A DNA stretch of 64,000 nucleotides, from contig JAAYJU010000121.1 of assembly GCA_012522735.1 (NCBI GenBank), forward strand, positions 48,410-112,409. Direction: 5' to 3'. The notes beneath the pieces were generated by a model. The model saw nothing but the letters and a program-made list of their open reading frames with translations, was not told where the DNA came from and ran no database searches. This DNA comes from Clostridiales bacterium. GTDB taxonomy: Bacteria; Bacillota; Clostridia; Lachnospirales; Lachnospiraceae. Below, one piece after another: positions 24,522 through 55,530 of the stretch. The translations under genes and the position numbers were made by a program. How positions within the stretch are numbered: the first letter of the stretch is position 1; each line of letters opens with the position of its first letter.

Positions 24522-25394
24522 ATGCATGAAGTAAAAGTAAGGGGAATATTATCTGCTCAGAACGGAATGAATATATACCGAGGCTGTACCCACGGTTGTA
24601 TTTATTGTGATTCCAGAAGCAAATGCTATCAGATAAATCATGATTTTGAGGATATTGAGGTTAAAAGTAACGCTCCTATCCTTCTAGAAAATGCACTTCG
24701 CAGTAAAAGAAAGAAGTGTATGATAGGAACTGGCGGTATGTGTGACCCCTATATACATCTGGAAGAAAGGCTGGGTAATACCAGAAAATGTCTGGAGCTT
24801 ATAGAATCCTATGGTTTCGGTTTGGCTATTCAGACCAAATCCGCCAGAATCCTTAGAGACTTAGATTTACTAAAGAAAATAAATGATAAAACTAAATGTG
24901 TGGTTCAGATAACACTTACTACCTATAATGAAGACCTATGCAAAATACTAGAACCCAATGTAAGCACCACAAAGGAGCGCTTCGAAGTACTAAAGATTAT
25001 GCGAGATAACAACATACCTACAGTGGTTTGGCTAGATCCCATACTTCCCTTTATCAATGATACAGAGGAAAACATCAGGGGAATTCTAAATTACTGTATA
25101 GAAGCAAAGGTACACGGTATTATCTGCTTTGGGATGGGTTTAACCCTTAGAGAAGGAAATAGAGAGTACTATTATAAGAAGCTTGATGAGCATTTCCCTG
25201 GACTGAAATCAAGGTATATAAAGACCTACGGCAACTCCTATGAGGTAGCAAGCCCCAATAACAATAAACTAATGGCTATATTTCGGCAAGAATGTATATC
25301 CCATGGTATAATAAACGAACCAAATAAATGTTTTAGCTATCTTCATGAATTTGAAGAAAAGGATAAATATGATCAACTAACATTATTCTCTTAA
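24522..25394 (+). CDS. SPL-family radical SAM protein
   Basis: 290 aa cytosolic radical SAM enzyme. The 4Fe-4S cysteine motif is CTHGCIYC (about residues 22-29, Cx3Cx2C), followed by the SAM-binding MIGTGGMCDPY. The overall layout matches the spore-photoproduct-lyase-like (SPL/Rv2578c) family, whose substrates are mostly unknown. It lacks the long C-terminal part of true spore photoproduct lyase. Good GGAG before the ATG. The stop codon lies inside a 45-nt perfect palindrome. It is monocistronic by context, with its own promoter. Confidence 0.88.
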   Translation: MHEVKVRGILSAQNGMNIYRGCTHGCIYCDSRSKCYQINHDFEDIEVKSNAPILLENALRSKRKKCMIGTGGMCDPYIHLEERLGNTRKCLELIESYGFGLAIQTKSARILRDLDLLKKINDKTKCVVQITLTTYNEDLCKILEPNVSTTKERFEVLKIMRDNNIPTVVWLDPILPFINDTEENIRGILNYCIEAKVHGIICFGMGLTLREGNREYYYKKLDEHFPGLKSRYIKTYGNSYEVASPNNNKLMAIFRQECISHGIINEPNKCFSYLHEFEEKDKYDQLTLFS

Positions 25395-25435
25395 TACTTT
25401 CTTAATGGTGCCAGGCACCATTAAGAAAGTATTAA
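25391..25435. repeat. Perfect 45-nt palindrome with GGTGCC core (REP-like), also terminator-like
   Basis: Two 22-nt arms are exact complements around a single central A. The tip is TGGTGCCAGGCACCA. It includes the stop codon of the radical SAM gene. The GGTGCC-n-GGCACC tip is seen again 50 nt downstream, which suggests a repeated palindromic element rather than a plain terminator. Confidence 0.85.
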
Positions 25436-25465
25436 CAATCAGCAAATTAATTCATAATTTTGTAA

Positions 25466-25480
25466 TGGTGCCTGGCACCA
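25466..25480. repeat. Second GGTGCC palindrome (TGGTGCC T GGCACCA)
   Basis: A perfect 7-bp stem around a single T. It shares the sequence of the tip of the palindrome at 25391, with the central base swapped from A to T, so it can be read as the same unit in inverted orientation. It lies 22 nt before the AAC(3)-like gene and overlaps its 5' leader. Confidence 0.75.
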
Positions 25481-26341: not shown

Positions 26342-26491
26342 ATTATTATAAGAATATTAGAAAATCATTAAAAGTAGGATATTTAATTGCTAAATAAAAG
26401 CTAAATTGATAATATAAAGACAATTCGACATAAAGCCTGTTCTAATAAGATATACATATATAAATATTAAATACTAATGGGAGGTAGAAAC

Positions 26492-28042
26492 ATGGAATTT
26501 TTATTAATGGCATTACCGGTTATAGGAGCTGTTCTATTATTCATATTACTTATTGCTTTAATAGGTTATGTAAAGGCACCACCTGACCAAGCATTTATTA
26601 TTTCCGGACTTAAGAAAGAGGGAAAAATTTTAGTTGGTAGAGCAGGTGTAAGAATACCATTTTTAGAGAGGTTAGACAAATTATATTTAGGTCAGATGAC
26701 GGTGGATATTAAGACCGAGCTAAGCGTTCCTACTAATGACTTCATTAACGTAAATGTCGATGCTGTTGCTAAGGTAAGAATACATACTACCGAGAGTGGA
26801 ATTAAGCTTGCAGCTAAAAACTTTTTAAATAAGTCAGCGAATGAAATTACTTTGGATTTACAAGATTCATTGCAAGGTAATATGAGGGAAATTATCGGTA
26901 CCTTGTCACTAAAAGAGATTAACACAGATAGAGATTCATTTTCAGACCAGGTAATGTTAAAAGCATCTAAGGATATGGAAAAGCTTGGTATTGAGATACT
27001 GTCATGTAATATTCAAAATGTAACAGATGAAAATGGATTAATCAAAGACCTTGGTGCTGATAACACATCATTAATTAAGAGAAATGCTGCGATTGCTAAA
27101 GCACAGGCTGATAGAGATGTGGCAATAGCACAAGCTGAAGCAGATAAGCAAGCTAACGATGCCAGAATTATTTCTGAAACTGAAATAGAGCAAAGAAATA
27201 ATGAACTAGAGATTAGAAAAGCAGAGTTAAAAATCATTACAGATGCTAAAAAGGCTGAGGCTGATGCTGCTTATTCAGTACAGGAGCAAGAGCAAAGAAA
27301 GAAAATAGAGACAGCCAAGGTTAATGCAGATATTGCAAAAGCAGAGCGAGGGGCTGTACTTAAGAAGCAAGAAGTTGAAGTAATGAAGCAAACACTTGAT
27401 GCTGAGGTTCGTGCACAAGCAGATGCTGAACGATATAAACAGGAGCAAGTTGCTCAGGCTGAATTGTTTGCTAGACAAAAGGATGCAGAGGCTAAGCTTT
27501 ACGAAGATAAACAGGCAGCCGAAGCAGAGAAAGCAAGGGCAGAGGCAGAAAGATTTGCTAAGGAGCAGGTAGCTGAAGGTACAAGAGCATTAGGACTTGC
27601 AGAGGCAGATGCAATTAGAGCTAAGGCACTGGCAGAGGCAGAGGGTATTGATAAGAAGGCAGAGGCTATGAAAAAATACGGCGAGGCTGCTATTATTGAA
27701 ATCATAATGGATGCTATGCCTGAAATAGCTAAAAATATTGCTCAACCTCTATCTAAGGTTGATAAGATTACCATGTATGGAGAGGGTAACAACACCAAAT
27801 TAATTAAGGACATTGTAAATGGAACAACTCAGGTAACAGAGGGTGTGGCTTCCAGTTTGGGAATAGATCTTAAAGCCTTAATATCCGGCTTCCTTGGCGG
27901 TAAAGTATCTCAAAGTGGCGAAGCAAGTAAAGGTAGCGAAATAACTAAAGATGATGTTATACAGATTGTAAAGCAAAACACTACTATTGATACAGAGCTT
28001 ATCTCAGAGTCCGACTCAGAAGAAAGTCCCGAAGAGAATTAG
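26492..28042 (+). CDS. Flotillin / SPFH-domain membrane scaffold protein
   Basis: Membrane-microdomain scaffold of about 516 aa. An N-terminal transmembrane segment (about residues 1-24) is followed by an SPFH/band-7 domain (about 25-190). A long Ala/Glu/Lys coiled coil comes next (about 195-390) with many AE and EA repeats, then a C-terminal oligomerisation region. The ATG at 26492 is fixed by GGGAGG. The track start at 26477 would translate through that site. No NfeD partner gene is adjacent, unlike many bacterial flotillin operons. It is followed by a long structured repeat. Confidence 0.92.
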   Translation: MEFLLMALPVIGAVLLFILLIALIGYVKAPPDQAFIISGLKKEGKILVGRAGVRIPFLERLDKLYLGQMTVDIKTELSVPTNDFINVNVDAVAKVRIHTTESGIKLAAKNFLNKSANEITLDLQDSLQGNMREIIGTLSLKEINTDRDSFSDQVMLKASKDMEKLGIEILSCNIQNVTDENGLIKDLGADNTSLIKRNAAIAKAQADRDVAIAQAEADKQANDARIISETEIEQRNNELEIRKAELKIITDAKKAEADAAYSVQEQEQRKKIETAKVNADIAKAERGAVLKKQEVEVMKQTLDAEVRAQADAERYKQEQVAQAELFARQKDAEAKLYEDKQAAEAEKARAEAERFAKEQVAEGTRALGLAEADAIRAKALAEAEGIDKKAEAMKKYGEAAIIEIIMDAMPEIAKNIAQPLSKVDKITMYGEGNNTKLIKDIVNGTTQVTEGVASSLGIDLKALISGFLGGKVSQSGEASKGSEITKDDVIQIVKQNTTIDTELISESDSEESPEEN

Positions 28043-28053
28043 ATAAAATACAA

Positions 28054-28252
28054 AAAGGGGCTGTTGCAAAACTGTACCCGGGATGTATATGTGTAACCTC
28101 ACACACTGATTAGTAGTACAGATACTCATGATATCTAAGTCTTATACGGACTAATCGTCCGTAACGATCATACATATCATGAGTATCAGTTCTCCTAAAT
28201 GTGCATTTTGGTTACACATATACATCCCTTATTTTTTAGCAACAGCCCCTTT
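28054..28252. repeat. Nested palindromic element A (four stacked stems)
   Basis: Outer arms AAAGGGGCTGTTGC/GCAACAGCCCCTTT are exact over 14 bp. A second stem GGGATGTATATGTGTAACC (19 bp, 28080-28098 with 28210-28228) is also exact. Inside are a 17-bp stem (28118-28134 with 28174-28190, one mismatch) and a 6-bp ACGGAC/GTCCGT stem with a 5-nt loop. The outer two stems are homologous to element B at 52608, with paired changes in both arms. It follows the flotillin stop by 11 nt and may also end transcription. Confidence 0.85.
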
Positions 28253-28544: not shown

Positions 28545-29096
28545 TTAATTAGTCCATTTTTTCTTATAAGATGATATCACTTCATCACTCCATATATGAA
28601 CCTCAACATATCTTTCGGGACCAAATTTTCCATCATCATTCCAACCCTGAGGTAATCCATACTTGTTAATTATCTCCAGTATTTCATCATAAACATAAAG
28701 CTTCTTTCTATATTCCTTTCCATCATTTACCCGAGGGCTAAAGGTAGGATGAGAGTCACCATAAGTAAATGATAAGGTTGCTATGTCAAACTCTTCTATA
28801 GGAATTTTTATATATGTACTATTCTCATACCATGTAGAAAGCCAAGGGCTGTGTTCTACAACCATGTAGTGTGGAGATTGTCTTTCTACCCTTCCACCCT
28901 TTTTTATAAATAATTCTCTTATTATGCTTTCATAATAAAGCCTGTCCTCAATGTATGTATCTTGTCTCTTTGCACATTGAACATTAGGCTTTTCATTTTT
29001 TATTTCATTCAGGACTCTCTTAGCCTCATCAATCGGCATATCTGATATGCTTTCAAATGGCCCTATACACTTATCAAAATAGTGATATAAATTCAT
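28545..29096 (-). CDS. Hypothetical protein
   Basis: 183 aa soluble protein. I recognise no family. GAGGAG fixes the start at 29096 (MNLYHYFDK). The track start at 29126 would overlap rpiA. The sequence is rich in aromatic and charged residues, with a central HYMVVEHSPWLSTWYEN and a C-terminal PERYVEVHIWSDE. No signal peptide or membrane segment is present. It begins 29 nt after the rpiA stop, so the two are probably co-transcribed. Confidence 0.75.
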   Translation of the reverse strand: MNLYHYFDKCIGPFESISDMPIDEAKRVLNEIKNEKPNVQCAKRQDTYIEDRLYYESIIRELFIKKGGRVERQSPHYMVVEHSPWLSTWYENSTYIKIPIEEFDIATLSFTYGDSHPTFSPRVNDGKEYRKKLYVYDEILEIINKYGLPQGWNDDGKFGPERYVEVHIWSDEVISSYKKKWTN

Positions 29097-29125
29097 GTTA
29101 GCTCCTCTATAAACGTATATTAGCA

Positions 29126-29806
29126 TTATGATTTATAATCTACTTCAAACTCTTCAACATCTCCGTTCTGATGCCCGATAATAACTCTATTTGCCATATT
29201 AACAAATAGCCCACTATCAACAACACCCGGAATTATACTTATCTTATTACGAAGATTTTTAGGATCTTCGATTTTGCCAAAATGACAATCTATAATGTAA
29301 TTACCATTGTCAGTTATGAATACCTTATCATCCTTAACCCTTAAATGTGATTCACAACCTAGACTCTCAAGCTTTTTTATCGTAATCTCATATCCAAACT
29401 TAACTATCTCTACAGGTAGAGGAAATTCACCTAGATGCTTAACCATTTTGCTCTCATCAACTACTACTATGAACTCTTTACAAGAGGCAGCTACTATCTT
29501 CTCTCGAAGTAGTGCGCCTCCCCCACCCTTAATTAAATTAAAATCCTTATCAACCTCATCAGCACCATCTATAGTTATATCTATTTCACCGATATCAGAG
29601 AAGGAAACCAGCTTAATCCCAGTTTCTCTGGCAAGCTCTTCTGACTTCATAGATGTGGCAATCGCACTAATATTAAGGCCGCTTTGAACCCTCTGCCCAA
29701 GCTTCTTTATAGCCCAATAAGCAGTAGAGCCTGTCCCTAAGCCTACTACCATATTATCATCTATATAATCAACAGCCCTCTCGGCAGCAATTCGTTTAGC
29801 ATTCAT
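29126..29806 (-). CDS. rpiA: Ribose-5-phosphate isomerase A
   Basis: Cytosolic enzyme of the non-oxidative pentose phosphate pathway that interconverts ribose-5-phosphate and ribulose-5-phosphate. 226 aa, normal length. The signature segments are complete: MVVGLGTGSTAYWAIKKL (about residues 20-37), DGADEVDKDFNLIKGGGGALLREKI (about 80-104) with catalytic residues, and the lysine-containing EKIVA and DESK region. The hypothetical gene at 28545 follows on the same strand. Confidence 0.95.
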   Translation of the reverse strand: MNAKRIAAERAVDYIDDNMVVGLGTGSTAYWAIKKLGQRVQSGLNISAIATSMKSEELARETGIKLVSFSDIGEIDITIDGADEVDKDFNLIKGGGGALLREKIVAASCKEFIVVVDESKMVKHLGEFPLPVEIVKFGYEITIKKLESLGCESHLRVKDDKVFITDNGNYIIDCHFGKIEDPKNLRNKISIIPGVVDSGLFVNMANRVIIGHQNGDVEEFEVDYKS

Positions 29807-46300: not shown

Positions 46301-46364
46301 AGGGCAGTGCAATAATCATAAGGGCACATACCTATGTGCTCTTGGCAAATTATTGCACTGCCCT
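46301..46364. terminator. Nested hairpin after the GNAT gene, with flanking direct repeats
   Basis: Outer arms AGGGCAGTGCAATAAT and complement are exact over 16 bp. An inner GGCACATA/TATGTGC stem (11 bp with one mismatch) nests within, giving a two-arm layout. Upstream the 11-mer AAGCAGTCTAA occurs twice with a 16-nt period (46275 and 46291). It lies downstream of the GNAT gene on the minus strand. Confidence 0.7.
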
Positions 46365-52607: not shown

Positions 52608-52714
52608 AAAGTGGCTGTTTCAAAATTGTACTCGGGATATATAAGTGTAACCAACACACGATGTGTGTTGGTTACACTTATACATCCCTTGTAGTTTTTG
52701 AAACAACCACTCTT
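52608..52714. repeat. Nested palindromic element B (two long stems)
   Basis: An outer stem AGTGGCTGTTTCAAAA with its complement (one mismatch) encloses a 26-bp hairpin (52634-52659 with 52663-52688, one mismatch, GAT loop). Sequence and layout are homologous to element A at 28054, with changes in both arms that keep pairing. It lies between the small ORF and the convergent ABC transporter genes and could serve as a bidirectional terminator. Confidence 0.85.
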
Positions 52715-53464
52715 TTATTCGGATTTTACGTCCCTTAAGATTCTACGAAGGAATTCTCTTGTACGCTCTTGCTTTGGATTATTGAATATTTCCTTCGGAC
52801 TTCCTTCCTCAGCAATAACACCTTGGTCCATGAATACTACCCTGTCTGCTACCTCACTGGCAAATCCCATCTCATGGGTTACTACCAGCATGGTTAATCC
52901 ACTCTTAGCAAGATCTTTCATAACAGCCAGTACCTCTCCTACCATCTCGGGGTCTAGTGCTGAGGTTGGCTCATCGAAAAGCATAACATCAGGCTCCATA
53001 GACAGTGCTCTGGCTATAGCCACTCTTTGCTTCATTCCTCCCGAAAGCTGCCTGGGCTTGGCATTGATATACTGATCCATGCCAACCACCTTTAGGAACT
53101 TCAGTGCAACCTTTTCGGCTTCCTCCTTACTACGATGTAGAACCTTCATCTGACCGATTGTGCAGTTGCTAAGAACATTATGATTGTTAAATAGGTTAAA
53201 CTGCTGGAATACCATTCCAAGCTTTGTTCTATATGCATAAACGTCATGCTTATTATCCAAGACGTTATTTCCATGATATATGATTTCTCCACCGCTGGGC
53301 TTTTCCAATAGATTTATACAGCGTAGAAGTGTCGATTTTCCGGAACCCGAAGCTCCTATTATACATACAACCTCTCCTTTATTTACTGAGAAATTGATAT
53401 CTGATAATATTTCATTTTCACCAAACCATTTACTTAAATGCCGAACTTCTATAATTTTATCCAT
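52715..53464 (-). CDS. Polar amino-acid ABC transporter ATP-binding protein (probable lysine importer)
   Basis: About 249 aa cytosolic ATPase. Walker [14 protein letters not shown] (about residues 34-46), Q-loop [11 protein letters not shown], signature [15 protein letters not shown] and Walker [15 protein letters not shown] are all complete. GGAGG fixes the ATG at 53464. It belongs to the GlnQ group. The operon (binding protein, permease, ATPase) sits behind a lysine riboswitch, so lysine or a related basic amino acid is the likely cargo. Confidence 0.92.
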
Positions 53465-53484
53465 TTTTACCTCCATAAAGCCTA

Positions 53485-55310: not shown

Positions 55311-55530
55311 TACACTTCGAGTCCTCCACATTCCCTGAATGAGATAGCACAACTCATAAAGCCGGGTAGCCTTATGAGACAGTCCTACAGCTCTTAACTG
55401 TAAGCCCAGCAAATAATACCGAGTATATTATAAGCTTCGGCGATATTTCCTTCTCTATAGCTTCTTGGCTTCTCAGGCTCCACTATAGACTAATAAATAC
55501 CGCTCCTCTACCCCACCAAAAAAGTGAGGC
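55311..55530 (-). promoter_or_regulatory. Lysine riboswitch (L box)
   Basis: Read on the minus strand, the conserved L-box landmarks appear in order: GGTAGAGGAGC, TAGTCTATAGTGGAG, a stem ending AAGGAAATATCGCCGAAGC, TGCTGGGC, GGACTGTCTCATAAG with its arm, and finally TGTGGAGGACTCGAAGTG closing helix P1. A terminator follows. The five-helix layout and about 220-nt length fit the family. It controls the amino-acid importer genes downstream and identifies lysine as the likely substrate. Confidence 0.88.

Follow-up and report, generated by a model that had tools for sequence, protein, structure and literature searches.

The nested palindromes A and B are members of a family of hairpin elements, ~200 bases long, that had not been catalogued before and is restricted to one genus. 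Both lie in the window, meaning the whole 64-kb stretch of DNA that was analysed. The family most likely consists of mobile palindromes, similar to REP, ERIC and MITE elements, that act as two-way terminators. The fuller account, in which genus-restricted and probably mobile nested hairpins sit at gene ends as two-way terminators and are shaped by template switching together with selection, is held with moderate confidence.

Elements A and B in the window

Both palindromes are present as the first-pass annotation gave them (Table 1), and so are the paired differences it had pointed out: GTTGC/GCAAC in A against GTTTC/GAAAC in B, and TATGTGTAA/TTACACATA against TAAGTGTAA/TTACACTTA. The two inverted repeats ranked highest in the whole window lie inside them. 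The outer arms read AGGGGCTGTTGCAAAA / TTTTAGCAACAGCCCCT in A and AGTGGCTGTTTCAAAA / TTTTGAAACAACCACT in B (52610-52625 / 52696-52711). The second stem of A (GGGATGTATATGTGTAACC / GGTTACACATATACATCCC) is complementary at 19/19 positions (100%), and the arms found inward of the outer ones in B (52629-52659 / 52663-52693) enclose a three-base loop. Folding gave -93.4 kcal/mol for A (z = -14.5) and -59.5 kcal/mol for B (z = -13.7); in each case 0/200 shuffles were as low. No ORF of at least 80 aa was listed inside A and no direct repeat abuts it.

Table 1. Positions of the elements, their parts and the neighbouring genes in the window
Feature	Positions	Strand	Sequence or remark	Basis
Element A, full-length nested palindrome	28056-28252	- (canonical strand)		R2 model score, fold, sequence
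A outer arm, window-left	28056-28071		AGGGGCTGTTGCAAAA	sequence, fold, inverted-repeat scan
A outer arm, window-right	28235-28251		TTTAGCAACAGCCCC; T-rich tail after it	sequence, fold, inverted-repeat scan
A second stem, window-left arm	28080-28098		GGGATGTATATGTGTAACC	inverted-repeat scan
A second stem, window-right arm	28210-28228		GGTTACACATATACATCCC	inverted-repeat scan
A conserved core	28099-28209	-	internal-loop motifs, middle stem, apical hairpin CGGAC...GTCCG	
Element B, centre-deleted copy	52610-52711	-	strand from arm asymmetry only	sequence, fold, R2 score
Third copy, strongly centre-deleted (probable)	46301-46364	.	GGGCAGTGCAATAAT ... ATTATTGCACTGCCC; resembles G006 remnants	
Flotillin-like gene, upstream 3' neighbour of A	26477-28042	+		ORF list
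Convergent gene, other side of A	28545-29126	-	193 aa	
Amino-acid ABC transporter ATPase-like gene	52715-53476	-	function named from sequence	

Element A is reversed in the window. The covariance model R2 (built from 50 diverse copies) scored it at 131.7 bits on the minus strand and 68.2 on the plus strand, and the asymmetric core agrees, with the internal-loop motifs AATGCACATTTAGGAGAAC ... GTACTACTAATCAGTGTGTGAGG on the minus strand. Element B, at 29 bits, also appears reversed, as judged from arm asymmetry only. The first-pass annotation had described extra inner stems in A where B has a three-base loop. A contains the whole ~110-nt core with its inner stems; B is a centre-deleted copy and not a second full type. 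The orthologous counterpart of B in genome G014 (L075) is full length and lies in the opposite orientation, with the orientation of B again taken from arm asymmetry only.

Element A begins ~14 bp past the stop of the flotillin-like gene, and the 193-aa gene on its other side has no NCBIfam match. The gap between two convergent genes is filled by B, which lies 3 bp from the stop of the ABC transporter ATPase-like gene. The last gene of a minus-strand amino-acid ABC transporter-like operon abuts B, and just upstream of this operon is a lysine riboswitch (55337-55518, minus strand; Rfam RF00168, 96 bits). Another nested palindrome (25391-25480, TGGTGCCAGGCACCA + TGGTGCCTGGCACCA) directly follows an ORF ending at 25394, and is outside the A/B family.

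Copies, architecture and distribution

A search of the element's own genome (a 259-contig assembly) with A and B uncovered dozens more copies; model matches put their number at ~40, many of them shortened. The covariance-model search that the first-pass annotation had proposed extended the family to relatives. R1, a model built from 14 own-genome copies, detected copies in 24/34 genomes of the same genus, and R2 in 26/34, with none in the other 8. At least ~90 R2 matches were counted in each of G006 and G013, counts which in many genomes include both-strand matches to one copy. In G006, a complete genome of 4.15 Mb, 95 R1 matches are spread round the chromosome. Outside the genus, none of 27 genomes searched with R1 had copies. 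When R2 was used to score the best 10 first-look candidates per genome in 295 genomes of the order (130 genera), a procedure that single weak copies may escape, only the element's own genome contained the family. Overall, ~320 genomes of other genera were checked and no family member was found in them.

Rfam searches at gathering and relaxed thresholds returned only sub-threshold, chance matches to miRNA-like hairpins. The exact core pattern had no matches in viral contigs, and blastn found none in phages and plasmids. No described family like A/B was found in the literature on Lachnospiraceae or Clostridia. Among the genomes that carry copies, the metagenome assembly SHOH01 (G014; L080, L082-L084) is titled 'Anaerolineaceae bacterium' and groups with the element-bearing genus; this label is probably wrong, as gene content and neighbours suggest Clostridia.

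The element is one long nested hairpin, in which a variable outer stem of 40-60 bp encloses a conserved ~110-nt core made up of three paired parts, with internal mismatches that are fixed. On the canonical strand the order is outer arm (GGGGCTGTT...), second stem (to ...CC), core, GG..., and the returning arms. The core reads ATAATGCACATTTAGGAGAAC, middle stem, TCG.TACGGAC...GTCCGTATAAGA, middle stem, TGTACTACTAATCAGTGTGTGA. The centre is absent from B, L003, L005, L014 and others.

The pairing can be seen in single copies with no model applied. In an alignment of 50 copies, partly picked by models built on the same structure, double-sided (compensated) change was detected in 42/51 stem pairs, 92.9% of cells were paired (70.3 +/- 0.6% in shuffles), and the covariation score was 0.586, as against 0.180 when shuffled and at most 0.128 with slid partners. 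Some column pairs show nearly every pair type (for example, UA 16, CG 15, AU 8 and GC 3). Several unpaired positions of the core are nearly fixed: GTGTGT, GA and GG lie opposite CC, AUA and AU (in RNA letters, GUGUGU, GA and GG opposite CC, AU-A and A). A mismatch at columns 41/129, mostly A.A, is kept in 40/50 copies. Mispairs in the outer arms, read on the canonical strand, comprise 362 G-T and 246 A-C, a mild excess of G-T that fits constraint on both strands and not on one RNA. The dispersed family with covarying arms predicted by the first-pass annotation is real: further copies exist in the own genome and in relatives, and their arms do not change independently.

Copies at unrelated loci have a core identity of 0.79-0.88 within genomes and 0.73-0.82 between genomes, and those of G006 have their own common second-stem sequence (CTTACC/GGTAAG). 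The family therefore spread within lineages or was homogenised in them. Orthologous gene ends often carry different subfamilies (core identity 0.70-0.83), which could mean that the same place was invaded several times or that the copies diverged fast in situ. The dispersal of the copies, together with their presence and absence, suggests that the element is mobile. The end motif of G006 also occurs at centre-deleted remnants. The L004 copy is nested inside another hairpin, and L044, L106, L150, L168 and L181 have further outer palindromes. At L110 (G006:C1 2850829-2851143) two near-identical copies stand in direct tandem.

The end motif had 113 matches in G006; the ~100 listed are whole copies or hairpin remnants, with no IS-sized pair that would indicate an autonomous transposon. 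A RAYT/Y1 partner was rejected: Y1 genes are present in 8/10 genomes with no model match within 1.5 kb, G031 and G015 (metagenome assembly DUQV01, titled 'Clostridiales bacterium') have copies without Y1, and Y1 does not track copy number. Single RAYT-like Y1 genes were noted at G000:C28:5757-6083 and in G001, G002, G005 and G014, and none adjoins copies. Loss of SbcCD as the cause of palindrome tolerance was also rejected. SbcD is a long-palindrome nuclease, and the copy-rich G000, G001, G013, G014 and G031 have it. In two further copy-rich genomes, G006 and G015 (the latter 85% complete), no SbcD was detected above the curated cut-off; nine other members tested have SbcD.

Origin of the paired changes

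Template switching between inverted repeats leaves two marks, arm homogenisation and spacer inversion (PMC8604942), and it can create and maintain hairpins (PMC8794818). Both signatures were found in the A/B family. At one orthologous place, represented by L044 in G000 and L055 in G009, the flanks are 86-94% identical and the cores are identical at 110/110 positions, yet the core is inverted relative to the flanks. In L085, whole arms differ at once and the core is unchanged. In G006, complementarity continues into the flanks beyond the element ends in 5/42 copies, compared to 0.5% when flanks are swapped (permutation p = 2e-4). The same pattern would arise if elements had inserted into hairpins that were already there. 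Template switching is a probable cause of arm change.

The first-pass annotation had taken the paired changes as a sign that the fold is kept by selection. Selection of this kind is likely, but paired changes by themselves do not prove it where template-switching signatures are also seen. Stronger arguments for it are the core and its internal mismatches, both conserved. The mismatches would be lost under template switching alone, and we therefore infer that template switching and selection both act. The family also warns against taking covariation alone to prove that an RNA fold is selected. Monttinen & Loytynoja explained perfect stems and compensatory changes of several bases by template switching in 2022 (PMC8794818); their hairpins are those of RNA genes, whereas here the process would act on a dispersed element with many genomic copies. 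With hundreds of natural copies, some of them orthologous, in which whole stems were replaced and complementarity was kept, the share of paired hairpin changes that is due to selection as opposed to template switching becomes testable.

Gene ends and competing explanations

Copies are concentrated at gene 3' ends, a placement which fits the terminator-type or MITE-like reading of the first-pass annotation. Out of 178 copies flanked by ORFs on both sides, 88 are convergent, 82 tandem and 8 'divergent', and in several of these 8 the ORF overlaps the element and looks spurious. Background junctions at the same loci (n=180) are 16 convergent (9%), 146 tandem and 18 divergent. In tandem contexts the copy closely follows the upstream gene, at a median of 18-28 bp from its 3' end, and both orientations are used (34 and 48). 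T-rich tails, defined by 5 or more T out of 8, extend beyond the two arms in 34% and 44% of cases (control: 10%), and a strong T run is missing from more than half of the arms. A consensus scan for intrinsic terminators missed both A and B, as their stems exceed its loop limit. Promoter-like sites at A or B were no more frequent than chance. In G006 the copies showed a bias towards one replication strand (Fisher p = 0.048), but in one replichore only, and it is not relied on.

After the orthologous flotillin gene, five relatives (G001, G008, G009, G021 and G019) lack the element. The first four possess a short, unrelated terminator-like hairpin at the same spot, and G019 has none. The syntenic G014 site also has no element; its spacer is shorter, and its sequence TAGGGCTGT carries GGCTGT, so an element may have been deleted there or may never have been present.

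In the explanation favoured here, copies would settle at gene 3' ends and serve as two-way intrinsic terminators or 3'-end hairpins. Such a role would require both strands to fold and leave the stem sequence free. Template switching at replication would copy one arm onto the other, flip the core in place and extend the palindrome into the flanks. Selection would act on the terminator and on the core, whose sequence may be kept by a binding factor, most likely the element's mover. Old copies would lose the centre and persist as short hairpins, as B has done.

A more specific explanation, tentatively considered, is a structure-recognised mobile hairpin: an enzyme would read the folded single strand via the fixed mismatches, the stems could be any paired sequence and would be rewritten wholesale by template switching, and the copies would also be used by the host as two-way terminators. 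The heritable identity of the element would then be its shape and the ~110-nt core, not its terminal sequences. Integron attC sites are likewise folded single strands of DNA that are recognised by their structure; their stems vary and their extrahelical bases are fixed. This is an analogy only, as no attC box was seen by eye and there are no cassettes. A classical MITE would also account for the terminal inverted repeats, the many copies, the lineage subfamilies and the intergenic sites. Such an element would have arisen by deletion from a DDE insertion sequence with TIRs GGGGCTGTTGCA..., the IS would move it in trans, and termination of transcription would be incidental. However, the G006 matches listed include no pair of ends of transposon size, no TSD was seen, and the terminal sequence varies widely while pairing stays, which is unexpected if a transposase reads the TIR. 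A classical MITE is therefore rather unlikely.

The deep covariation with conserved internal-loop nucleotides, and the mild excess of G-T over A-C on the canonical strand of the outer arms, are consistent with a structured RNA, acting in trans or in cis and amplified as repeats, whose canonical-strand transcript is protein-bound via the internal loops. This is improbable given that orientation is indifferent to the neighbouring genes (34 vs 48), the L044/L055 core is inverted in place, Rfam has no match and promoter-like sites at A or B do not exceed chance. In addition, A-C is nearly as common as G-T, meaning that both strands, or the DNA, are similarly constrained. The in-place inversion, the extension of arms past the element ends and the clustered multi-base compensations could also come from mutation alone. 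Template switching and slippage would then spread neutral palindromes and keep them perfect, and no function would be selected. Such a process would erase the internal mismatches, yet these were kept across 50 diverse copies; the strong enrichment at gene 3' ends and the complete absence of copies from some genomes of the same genus also speak against it, making it very improbable.

The favoured mobile terminator hairpin is comparable to several known repeats. REPs are reported to lie at the 3' ends of genes, in convergent or tandem gaps and seldom in divergent ones (PMC3733652). Like REPs, BIMEs and REPINs, the A/B family consists of palindromes dispersed over gene 3' ends, with copy numbers in the tens to hundreds. 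However, REPs are 20-40 bp long with a GTAG or CGTC foot, a tetranucleotide not seen in the family copies, whereas the A/B element is ~200 nt long with a conserved core. GTAG REPs also often have a linked RAYT, unlike the copies described here, which no Y1 transposase adjoins. ERIC (enterobacterial repetitive intergenic consensus, with a 127-bp consensus sequence), an intergenic palindrome of 100-200 bp that is counted among MITEs, has tens to hundreds of copies and is transcribed into a hairpin (PMC10969869). The A/B family is also intergenic and palindromic, with similar size and copy number, but occurs in another host group and its stems are not sequence-conserved; ERIC was compared by description only. 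The SPRITE, RUP and BOX repeats of Streptococcus pneumoniae are small, some are terminator-like, and they insert into one another (PMC10969869, PMC3049150), whereas A/B is, on a comparison by description only, one long nested hairpin with fixed mismatches. As in MITEs, complementary terminal arms bound a ~200-nt element too short for a transposase. The family was not placed under REP, MITE or ERIC because a defining feature of REPs and one of MITEs were lacking and ERIC was compared by description only. Its general kind is known (REP, ERIC, SPRITE, MITE), but its architecture and the way it evolves are unusual. It would be a rare dispersed family in Clostridia for which no moving enzyme is known, one that may supply terminators genome-wide.
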